This document shows, piece after piece, positions 8,861 to 24,764 of a stretch of DNA of 64,000 bases. Numbering within the stretch: position 1 is the first letter of the stretch; each line of letters begins with the position of its first letter. The notes below the pieces were generated by a model that saw only the letters and a program-made list of their open reading frames with translations, was not told the origin of the DNA and did no database searches. The DNA lies in NCBI RefSeq assembly GCF_030128875.1, contig NZ_CP124620.1:3038001-3102000 (forward strand). The letters run 5' to 3'. Both the position numbers and the translations under genes were made by a program. The DNA comes from Stenotrophomonas sp. BIO128-Bstrain (GTDB lineage Bacteria > Pseudomonadota > Gammaproteobacteria > Xanthomonadales > Xanthomonadaceae).

Positions 8861-8982
8861 GCAAGCGGAGCGCGCAGCGCCGCCAGGCGCGAAGGCGTGA
8901 GGGATTGAAGCCGAATGGACATGACGCCATTGGCGGCATGGGGCGCAGCCCGAAAGCCCGGCGGCGCAATGCGCCGACACGC
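8861..8982. repeat. Dispersed ~120-bp non-coding element, copy A
   Basis: This stretch begins GCAAGCGGAGCGCGCAG and ends GCGCCGACACGC. It matches copy B (10112-10232): a 35-base internal block (8884-8918) is identical, and a 51-base 3' block ending at the GACACGC has only two differences. The conserved block contains GCGCA/TGCGC palindromes, suggesting folded RNA or a protein-binding DNA element. It lies downstream of DUF736 and of the XRE gene. No protein reading is convincing in any frame. Confidence 0.75.
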
Positions 8983-10111: not shown

Positions 10112-10232
10112 GCAAGCACAGCGCGCAGCTCCGCAGGCGCGAAGGCGTGAGGGATTGAAGCCGAATGGCCGTGACGACAAAGGCGGCACGGGGCGCAGCC
10201 CGAAAGCCCGGCGGCGCAGTGCGCCGACACGC
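10112..10232. repeat. Dispersed ~120-bp non-coding element, copy B
   Basis: This is nearly identical to copy A (8861-8982) over its central and 3' blocks. The shared order is GCGCGCAG, AGGCGCGAAGGCGTGAGG, GATTGAAGCCGAATGG, then GGGGCGCAGCCCGAAAGCCC and the GCGCCGACACGC end. It ends 16 bases from the stop of the ClbS-like gene. The two copies flank DUF736 with its leader. Confidence 0.75.
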
Positions 10233-16070: not shown

Positions 16071-16354
16071 GCGCAGCGCAAGCAGTCAGGGATCGGAGAC
16101 GGCCATCAGGCCGCAAGCGTGCGAGCACGCGCAGTCATTGACGGCGAGAACGCCGTGATACGGTGAAGGGAACAGCAAGACCGCCTACACCCTCCCATTG
16201 CACACACAGGCCCTTGTGCAAGCGGAGCGCGCAGGCCCGTCAGGGCCGAAGGCGTCAGGGGTCAAAGTCGAATGGCCGCGACTCGGAACGAGGCGCGGGG
16301 CGCAGCCCGCGAACCCGACGGCGGCACGCCGGGGCGCACTGGATTTGTTGCGCG
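16071..16354. other. Junction between ICE core and CBASS cargo
   Basis: 284 bases with no gene. The first part is the RadC leader. Copy C of the dispersed element occupies 16218-16341, and the cap3 stop follows 13 bases later. Base composition drops visibly in G+C from here into the CBASS genes, so the cargo boundary is close to 16341. Confidence 0.5.
16218..16341. repeat. Dispersed element, diverged copy C
   Basis: It begins TGCAAGCGGAGCGCGCAGG and keeps CGAAGGCGTCAGGG, GTCGAATGGCCGCGAC and GCGGGGCGCAGCCCG in the same order as copies A and B, with substitutions and small gaps. It ends 13 bases before the cap3 stop and so marks the inner edge of the defence cargo. Confidence 0.6.
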
Positions 16355-16822
16355 CTATTCCACAGGGGCAAGTACCAAACCTCGGCCTGATTTCGGCACC
16401 AACTCAGCGTATAGAGATTTTCGTCCGACGATGACAGCGACCATTGGCCGCTTGTCCCGACGCTTCGCTGATAAGCGGTTCCATTCCGATCTGTCCAGAC
16501 CAGAAGGATGAGGATGATCCTCTGGATGAGTGTGCCATTCCCCCAAGTAGCGGATAGTCCCGTTACTTGCCGTCCATCGCGCCAGGGCAATAGATTCGTG
16601 ACCAAAGGGCATCCGTTCGAATAGACATCGGAATCTCTTGTCATGTTCCGTAGGGGCCGTGGCTTCCTCGATAATCATGTGAGCCCCATGAACCGAACCA
16701 AGCAGAATTCCACCAGCTTCACAGGCGGTATCAACAATCTGAATATGCTGGCAAAAAGTCTCCAGTGTGGAATCCGTAAAATGCAGCAGCGTCCTCCTGT
16801 CGCCACTGGCCCAGGAACTCAT
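16355..16822 (-). CDS. cap3: CBASS Cap3, JAB/JAMM deconjugating peptidase
   Basis: A 155-residue JAMM isopeptidase-type protein. With the start used here, Glu35 (CEAGGILLG), His97 and His99 (EWHTHPEDHPHP), Ser107 and Asp110 (SGLD) form the complete metal site. In type II CBASS, Cap3 removes the cyclase from targets to which Cap2 has joined it, antagonising activation. The ATG at 16822 gives an ATGA overlap with the cap2 stop; two in-frame ATGs six and three codons upstream (16840, 16831) are alternatives. It is the last gene of the operon. Confidence 0.9.
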   Translation of the reverse strand: MSSWASGDRRTLLHFTDSTLETFCQHIQIVDTACEAGGILLGSVHGAHMIIEEATAPTEHDKRFRCLFERMPFGHESIALARWTASNGTIRYLGEWHTHPEDHPHPSGLDRSEWNRLSAKRRDKRPMVAVIVGRKSLYAELVPKSGRGLVLAPVE

Positions 16823-18450
16823 GAATTGCATACAGGACATTCCGGGTTCCGCAGCGGATCACAGTCGGGCGTGGCAGATTGCTGGGTACGGTCGATGATC
16901 CTCGTTCGAAGTGCGGGTGAATGGACGCCGTTAACCCAATCAAGCGCCATCTCTGCGCCCAGGCTGGCAGCATGCACTGACACCGAGGCAGGAAACGGCA
17001 CGTATAAGCCCTCGCATCCGTGCCCCGCCAAGATGGCAGGAAGAGGATCAACGGTAGAGCGGAGTTCACCTCTTCTATTGCTATGCCAAAGACATCGGTA
17101 GCAAGCACCAGATGCGTGCGTTCTCAATAGTGCGCGGACAGCCGTACCCGGTCCCTCTATCCAGACCGAAAGCATGGGCGTAGGTAGTAGATGATGGTCG
17201 CACAGCCAGTGCCCAAGGGATTCCTCCCCGGTGGCATCTATGAGAAGGTCCAGTTCTCCCAACTTGGCCTGCCTGACATCAACGGGAAGAGAACGAATCT
17301 CGGCCCCTGGCGCCAAGCGTTTCAGTTCCTTCGCCATAGCCTCGGCTTTGTTAGACAGCAGGTCTGGAAATCCCAAGCGATGGCGCCCGATGTTCTGCGG
17401 GAGAAGGCAGTCGAAGTCCACTAACGTGAGTTTTCCGCCGCATGTTCCCGCCCCGGCCTTGACCAGCATGTCCGACAAATATCCGCCGATCGTGCCGCAT
17501 CCCACGACGGCCAAGTTCTTGCCTGCAAGCGTTTTTGACTTAGGCATGTTCCGCTGGGCAAGGTAGCGATCGTCGATTCTGACCACTGAGATGGGTATCA
17601 CCTTCAACCCATAGCTGGAATCCTTTCGATCTGCGAGCTTGCTCTTTTTCACCGGACGTTGGCGGTCATAGAGAACCACGAAGCCATACGTCATCAACGG
17701 GGATTCGATGACGATCAGAACGCCATTGGCCTTTTTCCTTTCTCCTTCCTTGATGCGTTCGTGAATCTTGCGTCGGCACCGAGGGTCAAGGGTGCTTTGC
17801 CACGCCAAGATATCCCTCACTGTTTCAGGAGGCCAATGGCCGGTCAGAGGACGGGGTTGAGCACCCGTCTTTACCCGGTAAGTCAGCACCGTTCTATCGG
17901 TGACTTGGTAGCCGAGCGACTTCAGTTTTTCTGTTGTTCGATCTTCGTTGTCGGTGATGAACCACAAGGGATTCCCATTGGCCTGCGCGACGATGCAGTT
18001 CTGCCGCCCCAAATCCTCGCCTTGCATGTCCACGAAGCAAAGCCCACCGTGCCAGTAGGCGAAGAACTCTTCCGCGAGATCTTCGATCATCTCTCCCTTC
18101 AGGATCTGCCCGAACAAGACGGCCGCGTGTTGCAGGCATGCCAGCGACTGTCCGACAGGATCGTAGATGTCCAGGACGACCGTGCCCTTGGCGAGATAGC
18201 AAAGCCCGCCATCTGCGCCAAGATGAGGAACTGCAGCCGGCAGTTCGGAGGGGATTTCCAGGAGCCGGATGCGAGGTAAGTCAAAGAATGTGGGGTCGAG
18301 TTGGACTTCGCACGGACAACCCTTGCCCGCACCGGGTGGGTTCAAACACCCGTGCAGCTTGAACCAGCCGTCATCCGTCTTGCCAACAAACACGAAGCCT
18401 TGCTGCTCGAAGGCCTCGATCACGTCTGCGACCGCTGGGGCGCCGCTCAT
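16819..18450 (-). CDS. cap2: CBASS Cap2, E1-E2 fusion ligase
   Basis: A 543-residue ubiquitin-transfer-like enzyme. The N-terminal ~170 residues are an E2-like domain with candidate catalytic Cys84 ([13 protein letters not shown]). After a linker, the E1-like ThiF domain has the nucleotide loop [16 protein letters not shown], the [17 protein letters not shown] strand and [15 protein letters not shown]. Cysteines in SGACYRCLW and [11 protein letters not shown] are candidates for the E1 thioester site. Cap2 conjugates the C-terminus of the cyclase to cellular targets and primes signalling. Its start overlaps the cyclase stop by ATGA. Confidence 0.92.
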
Positions 18451-19589
18451 CCGGCCTTCGTTCGTCCGACCAGTTCGCTCGGACCAGCGGCGGCGGGAGC
18501 GGCGGCGATGGTGGCGACGATGGATACCACCTTGACCCGATCCGGCTCATTCGGAAAACGCGGACCGAATTCGCCCTGCATCCAGATGCAAGCTTGGGAA
18601 GGGCTGCTGGCGTCGGTTGCGCCGCGAAGGACCTTCTCAAATTCTTCGAACGCCTTTGCGGCTTCTTCGACACAGGCTTTGCCCAGCCGTGCCGTAAGCG
18701 ATTCGGATTCATCCACAGGGTTGTTCACCCCCGCACGCAACCGGGCCGGCAGTGCCACGACGACATCCAGCAACGCGAGGTCGTCGCGCCGATCACGCTT
18801 TTCAAATAGAGGGGCCGCGGCGGCCATCAGCAGGATCGAAGAGGGCCCGCCGCTGGACCACCTCCAATCACGGAATGCCTTCAAGTAACGAACTACGCGG
18901 CGGAACTGCTCCCCCTTGGCGTCCACTTCGCCCAGGAACCATTCCTTCACAGGCCTAGGGTCAGAGGGCATCCAGTTGCATTCACGATGAGCCAGAAGCA
19001 CCTTGTCAGCGGGCAGCGCTGTCCAAGCATCCCGTTCTGCCATGTTCACCGCTTCCGTCAGCGAGTCGTAGCCATATCGCTCCATCGAGGCCTTTGCGAG
19101 CGTGACAAATTCTTCGTCGGGAATAGCGTACAAAGGAATATCAATGTGGGCATACGCTGAAATGACGATACGGATGCACGTCGGCTTGTCGGTGACAAGC
19201 TTCCACTGCTTTTCCTCGACCAGCGGCCTCAATGCTTCTTCTGCAGCAGCAAAGAACACTGTCGTAGCCGTGCTGGGGCGTTTCGTCTGCGAGACGAAAC
19301 TCAACGGCAGATAGCACCCATCATCGACATCCGCTTGTTGCGGGCGTTGGGCCGGAGAATTCAGCGTCTTGTATGCCCACGACCCTTGCGTGAAGAAGCG
19401 TGGCTGCGGCACGTCCTCCGTGTATCCGTTTACCCTCAGCACGCGAGGGATGCCTGTGCGCAGGCAGTCCCTGACATCAGTGCGTGCGCTGGCGATCCAG
19501 GCGCGCTGCTCGGGCGTCAAATCCAGCTCATCATGGATGCAGGACTCGTCGTCAACAGTGGTAAAGAAAAGCGGACTCAGGTTCAGCAT
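18447..19589 (-). CDS. dncV: CBASS CD-NTase, DncV-like cyclase
   Basis: A 380-residue cGAS/DncV-like nucleotidyltransferase. GSWAYKTLN (Gly69-Ser70) and [11 protein letters not shown] (Asp87, Asp89) form the nucleotide and metal site, with Asp150 in HIDIPLY as the third acidic residue. All three are intact, so it should be active. Pairing with a patatin suggests cGAMP as product, as for DncV-CapV, but product identity cannot be read from sequence. The protein ends in ...TKAG; a terminal Gly suits Cap2-mediated conjugation. Its ATG overlaps the capV stop by seven bases. Confidence 0.92.
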
Positions 19590-20584
19590 GCGGCCTCCGG
19601 AACATTCTTGTTGGGGCCGTGATAGAAGATGGGGGCGCCGGCCTGGTGCGCTCGAAACGGTTGAAAAAGAGGATCGCCAAGCGCGCGCTGGGCCGCGTGG
19701 CTACCGCGATCCTTGAGCGTATTCGTGGCGCCAATGGAAACCCGATCCAGCGCCTTCACGTCCTTGCTCTGATCCGGCGTTGCCTTGTCGTCGATCTGGA
19801 AGTAGTTGTTCCCCAACAGCTGTCTCAGCATGTAGTCCACGGACGATTCCTGGGCGGAGATCACCAGATCGAAGAGTCCTCCGCGCCACTTACCGAATCC
19901 TCGGTCAAGGCTGGCGCCGCCACGGACAGTCGCACCAATTGTCATCGTGCCGATGGAAAGAACCCGAATCCGCGCATCCTGTTTCGGTGCCAGGAACGTG
20001 TTGACTTCATGCAACCCGAACAGACCAGGAGCATTACCCACCAGCCCTCCATCCGCGAAGACACCGCGGTCGTTACGCGCCAGCGGAAAGTAGACGGGCG
20101 CGGCAGCGGTCGCCAACGCAACATCGACGATCTTCATGCGGTGATCAAATTCAAAGGAAGGGTGGTGAGGTGTCTTGAAAAACTGTCCGCGACCTGTCGA
20201 GTAGTTGACTGCTGGTACAAGAACACGATGCTTCAGGTCGCCTACGGTGGTTCTCTGGAAGCGTTCGGTCAGCACTTCTCGCAACCCTGCCGAATCATGC
20301 TTTGCAGTCAACCAGAATCCCAGAAGCCGTCTTGAAAGACTGCGGCAACCAAAGATGCGGCTGCCTTCGTCTTCGAACAGTGCTTTGAGTTCGCTGGCAG
20401 GGATTTCCGCTGCCAGTCCCAAAGCCAACATCCCTCCTGCCGATGTGCCACAAATCAGGTCAAAGTGGGAAGCGATAGGCCGGCCCAGCACGGCTTCAAG
20501 CTCGGCAAGAACCGTGGCCGTATAAAGGCCGCGATAGCCTCCCCCCGACAGGGAGAGCACATGGTAGGTAGGGATGTCAGTCAT
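19583..20584 (-). CDS. capV: CBASS effector CapV, patatin-like phospholipase
   Basis: A 333-residue patatin phospholipase. [10 protein letters not shown] (14-19) is the oxyanion loop, GTSAGG contains nucleophile Ser48, and ADGG holds the dyad Asp178. The remaining C-terminal half is the usual CapV extension. When bound by the cyclic dinucleotide made by the cyclase, CapV degrades inner-membrane phospholipids and kills or arrests the infected cell. It is the second gene of the operon, starting six bases after the DUF2188 stop, with GAGAGG overlapping that stop as a plausible ribosome site. Confidence 0.92.
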
Positions 20585-20590
20585 GACGTC

Positions 20591-20815
20591 TTAACCTCTC
20601 GGGGGAAAGGAGTCGTTGCCGTGGCTATCCTTGTCACGGATACGGCCATCTGGACGATGGATGACGAGTTCGGACTTCTGGTTGCGTGCAATATCCCGCG
20701 CTGCATCTATTGCTTGCTGCTGCGTGTCATGCACAGAGGTCGCCCGCTCGTTGCCGGCGCCTTTAACGGCCCAACCGTCTTGATGAGGAACAACATGCTG
20801 ATTTTTTCCGGCCAT
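20591..20815 (-). CDS. DUF2188 protein heading the CBASS operon
   Basis: A 74-residue basic DUF2188 protein: NQHVVPHQDGWAVKGAGNERATSVHDTQQQAIDAARDIARNQKSELVIHRPDGRIRDKDSHGND. The family is small (about 60-80 residues), common in phages and islands, and uncharacterised. The pattern of HVVP...GWAVK...A...T...QAI..AR...E..IH..DG.I is complete. AGGAG lies eight bases before the ATG, and capV starts six bases after the stop, so it should be the first gene of the CBASS mRNA. A part in CBASS is inferred only from this position. Confidence 0.8.
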   Translation of the reverse strand: MAGKNQHVVPHQDGWAVKGAGNERATSVHDTQQQAIDAARDIARNQKSELVIHRPDGRIRDKDSHGNDSFPPRG

Positions 20816-20895
20816 GATGGCACTCCTACAATGGAACTATGGAAGTCCCAGCCAGCCGGCTGGGTTGTCAATGGCCGCCCGCTGTAGCACAATAC

Positions 20896-20913
20896 GTTGC
20901 TCATGCAGACAAC
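20896..20913. promoter_or_regulatory. Candidate CapH operator, site 1
   Basis: GTTGCTCATGCAGACAAC has the same 18-bp frame (GTTG, ten-base centre and right arm ending AGACAAC) as site 2, with a less symmetric left arm. It lies 81 bases upstream of the DUF2188 start. Confidence 0.5.
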
Positions 20914-20961
20914 AGGAAGACCAAGCCAATCCAACCTGTAGCAGGCGAAAAATCTGCTTCC

Positions 20962-20979
20962 GTTGTCTGGCTAGACAAC
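20962..20979. promoter_or_regulatory. Candidate CapH operator, site 2
   Basis: GTTGTCTGGCTAGACAAC is an 18-bp inverted repeat with perfect 7-bp arms (GTTGTCT/AGACAAC). It lies 147 bases from the DUF2188 start and 123 from the capH start, the kind of site expected for a dimeric XRE repressor acting on both genes. Confidence 0.55.
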
Positions 20980-21102
20980 AATGTATCAGAGCATGTGCGC
21001 TGGCGCAACACCTGCGCAACATGCGCCTTTGGACTCGACTGAATGTGGGGTTGATGCAACAGAGGGCTACGGCCTTCCCCCGCAACGCAAGGATCAGAAC
21101 TC

Positions 21103-21495
21103 ATGCCACAAACAGGCTTGGGCGTCGCTATCAAGACGCTACGCGAACGCAGAACCCTTTCCCTGCGTGAAATTGGGCAGCTATCGTCAGTGGACCATGC
21201 ATACGTCTACCGCCTCGAAACTGGCGAAAAAACAAACCCCTCCCAAGACCTGATTGAAAAGCTATTGAAGGTTCTTAAGCCGACGGAGAGAGATGCTGCA
21301 CTCGTAACTTGGCTGGTTGACCATGCGGACGCCGACCCGAACCTCGTCGAATTTGTGCTACAAGATTCGTCTATTGGTATCGACGTATTTACGATGGCGG
21401 CCGGCGTCAGGCATCGGGGTAACGCAAGGCCTGATCCCGCCACATTGATTACCCGGATCAAAAAGGCCCTTGAGGACGACGACGAGGACGATTGA
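21103..21495 (+). CDS. capH: CapH-like XRE regulator of CBASS
   Basis: A 130-residue protein. Its N-terminal Cro/C1 helix-turn-helix (LGVAIKTLRERRTLSLREIGQLSSVDHAYVYRLETGEKTNPSQDLIEKLLKVL) is followed by a helical C-terminal part (VTWLVDHADADPNLVEFVLQDSSIGIDVFTMAAGV) and an acidic end. It is divergent from the CBASS operon and followed two bases later by a HEIAH peptidase. This is the arrangement of CapH-CapP, in which CapH represses CBASS and is cleaved by ssDNA-activated CapP. The identification rests on architecture and neighbourhood. AAGGA precedes the ATG. Confidence 0.8.
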   Translation: MPQTGLGVAIKTLRERRTLSLREIGQLSSVDHAYVYRLETGEKTNPSQDLIEKLLKVLKPTERDAALVTWLVDHADADPNLVEFVLQDSSIGIDVFTMAAGVRHRGNARPDPATLITRIKKALEDDDEDD

Positions 21496-21497
21496 AC

Positions 21498-22367
21498 ATG
21501 GACGAATCGGATGTCAGACAGAAAGCACGCGCGTTCATTGCGAAAGTCGATGTTTCTAACATCCGAGAAGACCTGTCTCCCTATGTGACCGCTGCTAATG
21601 CCAAGGTCAAGAAAGATGAGCTTGGCGAAGGAGAGTCTGGCTATACCATTACCAAGCCGAACGGGAAGCACATAATCACCGTGAACTCCCTGGAGACTGA
21701 GGAACGCCAGCGTTTCACTATTTGCCACGAGATAGCGCATATCGTGCTCGACCTAGAATCGAGTCACGAGGAAGTCCCGTCCTGGTCTTATGCCAAACGG
21801 CATCCCAACGAGATCGCCTGCGACACATTTGCCGCTGAACTGCTGATGCCTTATCAGCGATGGCTTTCTGTCGTTCCCAAGGAAGAGCCTTCCTTGGACC
21901 TTATCCAGCGCATGGCCGATTTGTTTGGCACTTCATTTCCCGCGGCTGCGTCGAGATTCGCCAGTCTCAGCGATGTGCCGTGTGCCTTCGTCACCATGGA
22001 GCGTGGCGCAGTACGGTATGCGGCACGCTCCACGTCTTTGAGACAAGCTGGGGCCTGGATATCACCCAGGTCGGTGATCCCGGCTGGCTCAGTGGCTCAT
22101 CGAGTCAGATCCTCTGGGAACAGTACAACTGATACGGGGGAAGTCTCCCAGGACGTATGGTTCGACAACTGGGAAAAGGGCCTCGATCTCTGGGAACTTT
22201 CAAGGCACTACGCACGCACTGACACCACTATTTCGTTGCTATGGTTTGACGGCGAAGACCTGCCGGAGATCGAAGTGAACCGCTTCGGCGTGCGAGTGGA
22301 AGACGATGGCGGCCTACCAGAATTAACTGGTGAGTTGCCGTGGCCAGGGCGTAGCAAGCGTCGCTAG
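21498..22367 (+). CDS. capP: CapP-like ImmA/IrrE zinc metallopeptidase
   Basis: A 289-residue COG2856 metallopeptidase. ERQRFTICHEIAHIVLDLESS gives zinc ligands His77 and His81 with Glu78 as base; NEIACDTFAAELLMP (Glu105-Asp109) gives the third ligand region. The C-terminal ~150 residues form a separate domain that could sense the signal. In described CapH-CapP pairs, CapP cleaves CapH when it binds single-stranded DNA and so induces CBASS after DNA damage. The ATG at 21498 follows the capH stop by two bases; a TTG six bases earlier is less likely. It converges on the YhcG gene. Confidence 0.82.
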   Translation: MDESDVRQKARAFIAKVDVSNIREDLSPYVTAANAKVKKDELGEGESGYTITKPNGKHIITVNSLETEERQRFTICHEIAHIVLDLESSHEEVPSWSYAKRHPNEIACDTFAAELLMPYQRWLSVVPKEEPSLDLIQRMADLFGTSFPAAASRFASLSDVPCAFVTMERGAVRYAARSTSLRQAGAWISPRSVIPAGSVAHRVRSSGNSTTDTGEVSQDVWFDNWEKGLDLWELSRHYARTDTTISLLWFDGEDLPEIEVNRFGVRVEDDGGLPELTGELPWPGRSKRR

Positions 22368-22398: not shown

Positions 22399-23568
22399 CT
22401 AGTTTTCGCTGGGCGTATTGTGGGATGCCGGTCTACGTGATTCGAGCAGACGCCGCGTGTTCTCCAGCTCCTTTTGTAGCAGCTCCGCATCCGGCAGCAC
22501 GGTGCGGTAGTTCGCCGCCATAACCTTGGTTGGCAAGCCATCCAGCGCATACCGCGCCAAAGCATGGCCCTTGTCGGCACACAGGATCAGGCCCACCGGC
22601 GGATTCTCGTCCGGGTAGGCCCAATGCTCCTTGGCATAGTTGCAGTACATATGCATTTGCCCCACATCGGCATGGGTCAAGCCACCCAGCTTCAGGTCGA
22701 TGATGACCAGGCAGCGCAGCTTGCGATGGAAGAACAACAGATCCACCCGATACCAAGTCTGGTCGATGCGCAGCCGACGCTGCCGCCCAACGAAGGTGAA
22801 GCCTTCACCCAGCTCCAGCAGGAAGTCCTCCAGCCGCTGGATCAATGCCGCTTCCAGGTCGGATTCCGAATACTCGTCCTTGAGGTCGAGGAACTCCAGT
22901 ACATACGGGTCTTTGATGGCGTCGTTGGGTGTGACGGCATCCTCGGGCTTAGCAACCGAACCCTTGACCAGCATCGCCGCCTTGTCCTTGGACAAGGCCG
23001 TCCGCTCGTAGAACTGGCTGCCGATCTGTCGATCAAGCTGGCGCACGCTCCAGCCACCGCGCAGCGCCTCTGTCTCATAGAACTGACGGGCATGGTCATC
23101 CTTGACCGACAGCAGCCGGACATAGGCTGACCACGGTAGAGCGAAGGCCTGGGCCAGTTCGGAGAGGTCGAATTTCCGAGACACCGTCTCGGAATTCTCT
23201 ATGGGCAGTCCGTCTCCAGATTCCCGAGACAGTGTCTCGGCAATTGCCTCAACGGGGTAAGCGACGAAAAAACGCCGCATGTTCTCCAGGTTGTCCGGGC
23301 TGAAACCGCGCCCAAATCGTGCCGTCAGGTCGGCGGACAACCGCGCCATCAACTGCTCGCCGTAACCGGCCCGCCGTCTGCCTTTCTGCTCGGCTTCGAC
23401 GATCCGGCGGCCAATCTCCCAATAGCTGGCCGTCATCAGCGCGTTGACACTGCGCGCCGCCGCCTGACGCGCCGCGTCCAGCAGCTCCACGATGCCGCCG
23501 TGGATGCCGGCATAGCCAGCCGGTAAGGCAGCGGGTTTCCGTGTTGCCACGGGTGTCTTCCTTGTCAT
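22399..23568 (-). CDS. YhcG/DUF1016 PDDEXK nuclease-domain protein
   Basis: A 389-residue YhcG-family protein. The N-terminal DUF1016_N region covers IVELLDAARQAAARSVNALMTASYWEIGRRIVE and FGRGFSPDNLENMRRFF. The C-terminal PDDEXK nuclease domain has the RIDQTWYRVDLLFFHRKLRCLVIIDLKLG core and GQMHMYCNY. Its physiological role is poorly known, and it frequently occurs in defence and mobile regions. The ATG at 23568 has GGAGGTG ahead of it and overlaps the integrase stop (ATGA), so the two are coupled. An internal repeat encodes ETLSRESG and ETVSRKFD with palindromic DNA. In-frame sequence upstream of 23568 lies inside the integrase gene. Confidence 0.88.
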   Translation of the reverse strand: MTRKTPVATRKPAALPAGYAGIHGGIVELLDAARQAAARSVNALMTASYWEIGRRIVEAEQKGRRRAGYGEQLMARLSADLTARFGRGFSPDNLENMRRFFVAYPVEAIAETLSRESGDGLPIENSETVSRKFDLSELAQAFALPWSAYVRLLSVKDDHARQFYETEALRGGWSVRQLDRQIGSQFYERTALSKDKAAMLVKGSVAKPEDAVTPNDAIKDPYVLEFLDLKDEYSESDLEAALIQRLEDFLLELGEGFTFVGRQRRLRIDQTWYRVDLLFFHRKLRCLVIIDLKLGGLTHADVGQMHMYCNYAKEHWAYPDENPPVGLILCADKGHALARYALDGLPTKVMAANYRTVLPDAELLQKELENTRRLLESRRPASHNTPSEN

Positions 23569-24764
23569 GCTGTCACCTCCATAGAACGGGATGCCCCGGT
23601 AATCGCCAGTCGCCGATTCGCCACCAGTTCGGCCGCATCCCGCACGGGCTTGTCCTCGGTATGAACATAGTGCATAAACATCGCCACCGTCTTGTGCCCT
23701 GTGAGCTTCATGCCCACCTTGGTTGGCACGCCTGAGTTGGCAATGTCGGTAGTCGCTCGGTGACGGATGCCATGCGTGCCGACGTGCGGGACGCCAGCGG
23801 CCTTGAGCACGCGCGTCCAGCCGCCATAGTGTTCGCCGTGGGTCATGTGCCGGGTCGGGTCGTTCGGCGACGGCAGGACATAGGGGCAACCTTCCCGGCG
23901 CGGCGCTGTGGACAGCAGCCGATAGGCTTCCTCGCTCATGGGCTTGGAAATGCCGCCGGTCTTGCTGTCGGGCCAGACGACACGGCGGTTTTCCAGATCA
24001 ATCCAGCCCCACTCCAGCGGGCAGATTTCGGAGCGGCGGGCGGCGAACTCGAATTGCAGGCGGATCGCCAGGGGGATGACGTAGTTTTCCAGTCCTTCGG
24101 CTTCCAGCGTCCCCAACTGGCGGAAGATCCGCACCAGTTCATCGTCCACGATAAGCCGGGTTTCCTTGCCGGGTGGGTACATCGGGACATGGCGGCATGG
24201 ATTCGTCCCATCGGGGCGCAACCCCCACACTTCGGCCAGGTTGAACATCTTGCGCAGCACGCCGAAGGTGCGGTTGGCCTCGGCCTGCTTGTAGGCCAGC
24301 TTCTTCATCAGTGCCGCCACGTCCGGGCGCTTCACGTCCTGCACCTTCATCCGGCCCATGATCGGGATGATGCAGCGGTCGATGACGCCCTGATAGCCAC
24401 GCTGCGTGCTGGGCTTGTTACGCTGCTTGGAGTAGTCCTCCATGAAGGTGTGGCAAAACTCCTTCATGGTTGGTGCCTTGCGGGCGGCGTTCTTGGCCGC
24501 ACTGGGGTCGCCGCCCTTGCGCACCTCGGCCAGCCACTCCTGCGCCATCGTGCGTGCCTGATCGACGGTCAGTTCCCCGTACTGGCCCAAGGCGGGCTTA
24601 CGGCGCTCGCCCGCGTTCGTGCGGTACTGGAGCATGAACACCTTGCGGCCTGCCGGGGTGATCTTGCACAGGAAGCCGGGCACCACGGTGTCCCGCAGTT
24701 CGATGGCCTTGTCTTGGGGTTGTGCCGCATCTACTGCGGACTTGGTGAGCTTGATCTTCGCCAT
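23565..24764 (-). CDS. int: ICE tyrosine integrase
   Basis: A 399-residue phage-type tyrosine recombinase that should insert and excise the element. The N-terminal DUF4102 arm-binding domain covers residues ~1-85 (KIKLTKSAVDAA...VVPGFLCKITPAGRKVFMLQYR). The core-binding domain is followed by the catalytic domain with FAARRSEICPLEW (first Arg), HGIRHR (His-x-x-Arg), GHKTV (His/Lys region) and MHYVH (nucleophile Tyr). All catalytic residues are present, so it should be functional. It is the last ICE gene and reads away from the chromosomal junction near 24765-24940. Confidence 0.92.
   Translation of the reverse strand: MAKIKLTKSAVDAAQPQDKAIELRDTVVPGFLCKITPAGRKVFMLQYRTNAGERRKPALGQYGELTVDQARTMAQEWLAEVRKGGDPSAAKNAARKAPTMKEFCHTFMEDYSKQRNKPSTQRGYQGVIDRCIIPIMGRMKVQDVKRPDVAALMKKLAYKQAEANRTFGVLRKMFNLAEVWGLRPDGTNPCRHVPMYPPGKETRLIVDDELVRIFRQLGTLEAEGLENYVIPLAIRLQFEFAARRSEICPLEWGWIDLENRRVVWPDSKTGGISKPMSEEAYRLLSTAPRREGCPYVLPSPNDPTRHMTHGEHYGGWTRVLKAAGVPHVGTHGIRHRATTDIANSGVPTKVGMKLTGHKTVAMFMHYVHTEDKPVRDAAELVANRRLAITGASRSMEVTA

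Follow-up and report, generated by a model that had tools for sequence, protein, structure and literature searches.

A CapH-CapP gene pair with paired putative operators at predicted facing promoters beside a type II CBASS operon in Stenotrophomonas

In cyclic oligonucleotide-based antiphage signalling systems (CBASS), CapH and CapP are an adjacent helix-turn-helix (HTH) repressor and M78/COG2856 peptidase encoded beside the immune operon, with structures solved for the N-terminal domain of CapH from E. coli MS115-1 (7t5u) and for CapP from Thauera sp. K11 (7t5t). That CapH-CapP can accompany immune operons of different kinds, including Bub operons, has already been published (PMC13373217; here and throughout, sources given by PMC number are drawn on in excerpt). 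Comparable pairs are DdrO-PprI/IrrE of Deinococcus, in which an HTH repressor is cut by an IrrE-type protease stimulated by single-stranded DNA (ssDNA) (PMC10904395), and ImmR-ImmA of integrative and conjugative elements (ICEs; ICEBs1, TnSmu1), which follows the same repressor-plus-metallopeptidase logic (PMC10233336). CapW (a WYL protein) and CapK-CapS are also damage-responsive controllers of immune operons, built from other proteins and working by another mechanism (PMC13373217). Here we describe a gene pair in a 64,000-nucleotide stretch of the genome of Stenotrophomonas sp. BIO128-Bstrain (contig NZ_CP124620.1, positions 3,038,001 to 3,102,000; hereafter the window). It shares its architecture with CapH-CapP of CBASS and belongs to a clade distant from 7t5u and 7t5t, with a pair of GTTGTCT dyads of its own. 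Unlike DdrO-PprI/IrrE, which controls a set of DNA-repair genes, the pair faces one immune operon; unlike ImmR-ImmA, which controls element genes and excision, its putative operators adjoin that immune operon. We consider it likely, at a probability of roughly 0.75, that this pair is a damage-responsive switch acting on both operons through two operators, O1 and O2.

The gene pair and the operon it faces

An earlier note on this DNA had described an XRE-type regulator followed two bases later by a COG2856 peptidase with a HEIAH motif, and both the coordinates and the Pfam domains agree: HTH_31/HTH_3 is found in CapH and Peptidase_M78 in CapP, the gap is 2 nt, and HEIAH occupies CapP residues 77-81, with H90 and E105 downstream. 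The products match the PADLOC models over their full length (capH: E 2.6e-21, model positions 2-103 of 103; capP: E 1e-75, 252 bits, model positions 2-242 of 242), the next model for CapP reaching 36 bits. Among solved structures, CapP matches 7t5t best by sequence (E 1.1e-14; 7e-22 with a 20-row profile), in an alignment that spans residues 65-251, i.e. beyond the peptidase domain, and IrrE comes next (1.8e-5 with the sequence, 2e-9 with the profile). Across 20 CapP sequences with identity down to 42%, H77, E78, H81, H90 and E105 are invariant and the isoleucine of HEIAH varies; by its position relative to E245 of VapB52 (PMC13273310), E105 would be the third zinc ligand. For CapH the comparison with the described protein held in the HTH only. 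This domain matches many repressors, 7t5u ranking second (E 0.0038) and, with a profile, sixth. The AlphaFold2 model of CapH (mean predicted local distance difference test score 88) is all helical, with the HTH followed by C-terminal helices. Its first four Foldseek matches are DdrO, all weak (E 6e-3 to 0.055, TM-score 0.36-0.39); the sequence match to DdrO is likewise mainly in the HTH, and VIA-align on CapH mostly sees the HTH and barely tests the C-terminal part. Because the profile matches are full length and the best solved-structure sequence match is itself a CapP, we assign the two genes to the CapH-CapP module, as the earlier note had done from architecture and position, and not to the phage or ICE ImmA/ImmR pairs.

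On the other side of a 287-nt intergenic region (20816-21102), a distance and orientation that had been read correctly before, lies an operon which by its gene content is a type II CBASS. Its order is DUF2188, capV (6 nt on), cdnA, cap2 and cap3, with overlaps of 7 nt (capV/cdnA), 4 nt (cdnA/cap2) and 22 nt (cap2/cap3); the first of these genes, DUF2188, had previously gone unnamed.

Paired dyads at predicted facing promoters

Two copies of a dyad with the consensus GTTGTCT-N4-RGACAAC lie 66 bp apart in the window's intergenic region (O1 and O2, Table 1). O2 is the sole zero-mismatch dyad in the 4.49-Mb genome. At up to two mismatches the genome contains 88 matches, and because a reversed control pattern gives 52, the weaker matches are largely chance; within the window the same threshold returned only O1 and O2, with none at the integrase gene (weaker sites were not sought). 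To follow the dyads beyond this strain, the region upstream of capH was scored in 62 loci, namely the window copy and 61 of the 65 homologous loci described below, which together comprise 52 unique sequences. Both dyads are present in 51 of these, the window's included, and one (L058) has none. A best dyad score of 13/14 was reached by 50 of the 52 real regions and by none of 2000 first-order Markov sequences. Measured from start to start, the two dyads are 66 bp apart in 43 regions, 65 or 67 bp in four, 68 bp in one, and 57, 77 and 78 bp once each, so that the spacing falls within 65-68 bp in 48 of 52; the outliers are about one helical turn off, and no values lie between. This pattern suits helical phasing of the two sites, though the independent cases are few.

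A single-sequence promoter scan alone is unconvincing; the evidence for promoters comes from aligned regions, with predicted start sites taken as 7 nt past the -10 hexamer. Over 49 unique regions, the best position of a promoter directed toward capH (P+; in the window, TTGTCA-17-CACAAT) stops 2 nt short of O1, with a mean match of 8.08/12 against a background of 2.79 (standard deviation 1.16). The best position of one directed toward CBASS (P-) ends 0 nt before O2 (TTGCGC-17-TACATT in the window), with means of 6.92 for a 17-nt spacer and 7.02 for 18 nt (background 2.92, standard deviation 1.12). When the analysis was repeated on 14 divergent loci to reduce the weight of close relatives, the summed match was 101 for P+ and 108 for P-, against null values of 79.6 and 79.8 (standard deviation 4.1; 0/1000 each), and outward-pointing control promoters scored 79 and 81, equal to the null. 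In 15 regions less than 80% identical to one another, the hexamers carry 1.2-1.7 bits and O1/O2 about 1.6, compared with 0.77-0.94 in the spacers and 0.67-0.95 in the rest, and the observed mean information was reached by none of 10000 circular shifts. Weak single cases do occur: P+ scores 4/12 in L064 and 6 in four loci, and P- scores 6 in three.

In these alignments a conserved sigma-70-like promoter immediately precedes each dyad, and the pair of promoters is directed inward, one against the other. What can be read from the DNA itself is the gene pair, the near-constant distance between the two dyads, and where the two promoter footprints lie and which way they point. A conserved putative operator at each facing promoter supports the earlier suggestion that the divergent layout would allow CapH to repress both transcripts. 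With starts predicted at about 20900 and 20973, the first 74 nt of the two transcripts would overlap in antisense. Opposed promoters near a repressor-controlled decision are described for phage 186, where pR and pE are convergent and pR interferes with pL (PMC7708051), and convergent promoters are described for some restriction-modification systems (review, PMC12707154); unlike in these, each start in the window is predicted to lie inside a CapH site.

DNA damage commonly acts via LexA, whose box-like motifs include CTGTN8ACAG and TTAGN6TACTA, and one could suppose that LexA and the SOS response control CBASS directly, with the pair in a minor role. Neither motif is found in 20816-21102 when one mismatch is allowed to the first and two to the second, and we regard direct LexA control as extremely improbable.

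Table 1. Predicted genes, promoter elements and putative operators around the intergenic region (window coordinates)
Feature	Position	Strand	Description
cap3	16355-16840	-	JAB isopeptidase; PADLOC JAB 2.2e-59
cap2	16819-18450	-	E1-E2; PADLOC E1-E2 2.9e-230
cdnA	18447-19589	-	DncV-like CBASS cGAMP synthase; NCBIfam cGAS 1.8e-120
capV	19583-20584	-	Patatin-like phospholipase effector; NCBIfam CBASS_lipase 5.6e-123
DUF2188 gene (PADLOC PDC-S16)	20591-20815	-	PF09954 1.6e-28; PDC-S16 1.1e-41; 74 aa
P+ -35 (toward capH)	20865-20870	+	TTGTCA
P+ -10	20888-20893	+	CACAAT; predicted start ~20900, inside O1
Operator O1 (putative)	20896-20913	.	GTTGCTCATGCAGACAAC; less perfect dyad
Operator O2 (putative)	20962-20979	.	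GTTGTCTGGCTAGACAAC; perfect 7-bp arms
P- -10	20980-20985	-	TACATT on minus strand; predicted start ~20973, inside O2
P- -35 (toward CBASS)	21003-21008	-	TTGCGC on minus strand
capH	21103-21495	+	ATG 21103, TGA 21495; XRE-type HTH repressor, 130 aa
capP	21498-22367	+	ATG 21498, TAG 22367; M78/COG2856 zinc metallopeptidase with C-terminal part, 289 aa

The cassette among related loci

One scan of genome contigs returned 65 homologous loci, mostly from Pseudomonadota, and CapH is present in 63 of them. The arrangement could be tested in the 59 whose sequence includes the start of capH and 700 nt or more ahead of it: a divergent DUF2188 gene is found in 53, with capV behind it in 52 of those. Matches to cdnA, cap2 and cap3 accompany DUF2188-capV in 43 of the 52; of the remaining nine, L003, L011, L018, L036, L039 and L050 reach a contig end and L047, L052 and L053 do not. 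L044 has lost capV, cdnA and most of cap2. Plasmid records gave 87 matches, all below 60% identity. The comparison indicates that the capH-capP/CBASS arrangement is not due to chance and travels as a unit. The DUF1016 gene that adjoins capP in the window and the integrase gene were matched in only 1/65 and 4/65 loci, respectively, which places both outside the module. As a separate observation, L018 keeps the DUF2188-capV start (91-93% identity), and cdnA and cap2 behind it fall to 61% and 45%, an apparent recombination inside the CBASS operon.

These counts also bear on whether the pair is instead an ImmR/ImmA-type regulator of an integrated element, with no effect on CBASS. An integrase (23565-24764) and a RadC gene do lie nearby, and several homologues are named ImmA/IrrE or ImmA in their source records. 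The profiles, however, favour capP, and a phage collection gave seven matches, none covering more than 80% of CapP. Within the window, the dyads found at up to two mismatches are confined to the intergenic region, and the integrase is matched far less often than the DUF2188-capV side (4/65 against 52/59 testable loci). We find this explanation very improbable; a better fit to ImmA/ImmR regulators and a missing link to the CBASS promoter had been named earlier as grounds for rejecting the assignment, and the comparison turned up neither.

That O1 and O2 belong to CapH is suggested by pairs of the same clade that face other operons, their CapH being 36-77% identical to that of the window. The cargo is an SMODS cyclase with E1-E2 and Cap4-SAVED in L051, and DUF6791-ThiF with or without multiubiquitin in L056, L060 and L081; in L151 and L154 it includes a CapV relative (35-38% identity), and the set also takes in L065, L082 and L156. 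In L064 (6793-7455), a CapH-CapP pair that has both operators lies opposite a ThsB TIR-like gene, which may be cargo of the Thoeris type. All ten same-clade loci have two dyads, spaced 66-78 bp, the second one of L151 being weak (9/14). From a class sample of 369 genomes we also took 20 stretches surrounding matches to the CapP or the CapV model and scanned the 900 nt upstream of capP (its start being approximate in three cases): the best dyad score was 13-14 in 5/5 same-clade loci and 8-10 in 15/15 loci of other clades. One of the latter, L146, matches PADLOC capH/capP and faces a CBASS of the same DUF2188-capV-cdnA type, without the dyad. The dyads are kept with other cargo and absent in another clade with the same cargo; that they follow the CapH clade rather than the cargo is our best evidence for these candidate CapH sites. 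A different palindrome, ACGTTCGGTGTACCGAACGA (L142, 6531-6550), is found in another CapH clade and is perhaps an operator of its own.

CapH could still bind these dyads and mainly control its own gene, with CBASS constitutive or driven from elsewhere and not raised by damage. The lower score of P- than of P+ in the window (7/12 versus 9/12) would fit such an arrangement, which we think unlikely: O2 keeps its place at P- even where divergent loci carry different cargo, and the P- hexamers are conserved.

DUF2188, which PADLOC already lists as defence candidate PDC-S16, is linked to the pair in part. In the class sample there are 18 copies in 17/369 genomes, one copy with stop codons; 31/369 genomes match the CapP model at 1e-20 when partial matches are counted. 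Both occur together in 10 genomes against 1.4 expected (hypergeometric 5e-8, uncorrected for kinship). Nine of the 18 copies lie 0.5-2.8 kb from the peptidase gene, and three of these nine (G420, G558, G515) resemble a single shared island; the link to CapP is only partial because the other nine have no CapP match nearby. DUF2188 is found next to CapP genes that are only distantly related and ahead of varied cargo: it precedes CBASS in the window and in L146, a multiubiquitin/E2-ThiF operon in L155 and an HNH gene in L152. Searching with the window DUF2188 by tblastn gave no match within about 1.5 kb in 23 of 25 CapV loci, one of which (L089) has an M78 gene; the remaining two have DUF2188 together with CapH-CapP. 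It was also absent from the five CapV plasmid loci opened, of 91 records. One of these five, a Paraburkholderia phenoliruptrix plasmid locus (L075), has a WYL gene opposite a related CBASS (CapV 66%) in place of CapH-CapP, without a DUF2188 match at that locus; by its gene content this is a natural swap of controllers.

As to the surroundings of the pair in the window, a DUF1016/YhcG nuclease gene (22399-23889) precedes the tyrosine integrase gene, and the gene after the integrase looks by eye like malate dehydrogenase. Between 16 and 23 kb the G+C content per kilobase is 54-62%, compared with 60-72% in the remainder of the first 40 kb, which suggests an integrated island. A 99-nt repeat occurs three times in the element to the left of CBASS (8884-8982, 10134-10232 and 16241-16339), the later copies being 93% and 68% identical to the first.

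A candidate protease lock and the proposed switch

In CapP/CapH, ssDNA is said to act via a "cysteine switch loop" (PMC13273310, 2026), and in VapB52 the zinc is reported to be held by H216, H220, E245 and C229 (PMC13273310), the cysteine lying 9 residues after H220. CapP of the window clade differs from such cysteine-switch proteins: among 20 members, none has a cysteine within 24 residues of the end of HExxH on its C-terminal side, and all 20 have a histidine at +9 after the second HExxH histidine (H90 in the window, codon 21765-21767). By eye, the +9 histidine is also seen in L151, L154 and L156, which belong to the same clade but are more distant. In loci of other clades, a cysteine lies 12-15 residues after the second histidine in 11/15, and L145, L148, L149 and L150 have none. 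In the resting protease of this clade, the zinc may thus be bound by His90, although the loop lengths differ; in the alignment with 7t5t, the loop cysteine of that structure falls opposite S88, two residues before H90.

The missing cysteine, through which ssDNA is said to act (PMC13273310), and the distance of this clade from the solved CapP lend some weight to a CapH-like switch whose protease has a trigger different from ssDNA, for instance a small ligand or phage protein. We hold this to be rather unlikely, given that the distant relatives CapP, PprI and VapB52 are all reported to be ssDNA-responsive (PMC13373217, PMC10904395, PMC13273310) and that the invariant histidine may take the role of the cysteine.

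For the damage-responsive CapH-CapP switch, we propose the following course of events. In an undamaged cell, CapH would bind O1 and O2 and cover both start sites, repressing capH-capP from P+ (~20900) and DUF2188-capV-cdnA-cap2-cap3 from P- (~20973). DNA damage or phage infection would produce ssDNA and so activate CapP; active CapP would cleave CapH, both promoters would open and CBASS would be expressed. Once the ssDNA is gone, CapH made from the opened promoter would restore repression. CapH probably blocks both starts, and its cleavage by CapP probably opens both. Activation of CapP by ssDNA and cutting of CapH are proposed by analogy with the described CapP and PprI (PMC13373217, PMC10904395, PMC10233336, PMC11153139); in addition to these two steps we infer CapH binding, cooperativity between the sites and interference between the opposed transcripts. 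Our guess for the region of cleavage is a conserved loop, AGVRHRGNARPDP, at CapH residues 100-112.

More tentatively, and with doubt in our minds as to the whole, these features may combine into a mobile CapH-CapP clade with a "histidine-switch" protease, in which His90 would replace the cysteine, and a "double lock" of two helically phased operators covering two facing starts. CapH would then bridge about six helical turns for a sharp on/off response, the controller would be passed among unrelated immune systems, and DUF2188, as an unassigned partner co-expressed first, would be tied to CapH-CapP more than to CBASS. A literature search, which did not cover the primary CapH/CapP paper, turned up no account of the operator pair, the opposed promoters, the histidine or the DUF2188 link, and this silence is weak evidence of novelty.

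In conclusion, the module is of a known kind, and judged from its sequence features, the operators, the promoter layout and the absent switch cysteine make this clade a variant of it. It provides testable predictions, namely the operator letters, the start sites, their phasing, the 74-nt antisense overlap and His90 as a protease lock, and draws attention to DUF2188, so far unstudied, as a partner in damage-induced immunity. Immune operons that kill their host must stay off until needed, and at this locus the logic of the switch would be readable directly from the DNA.
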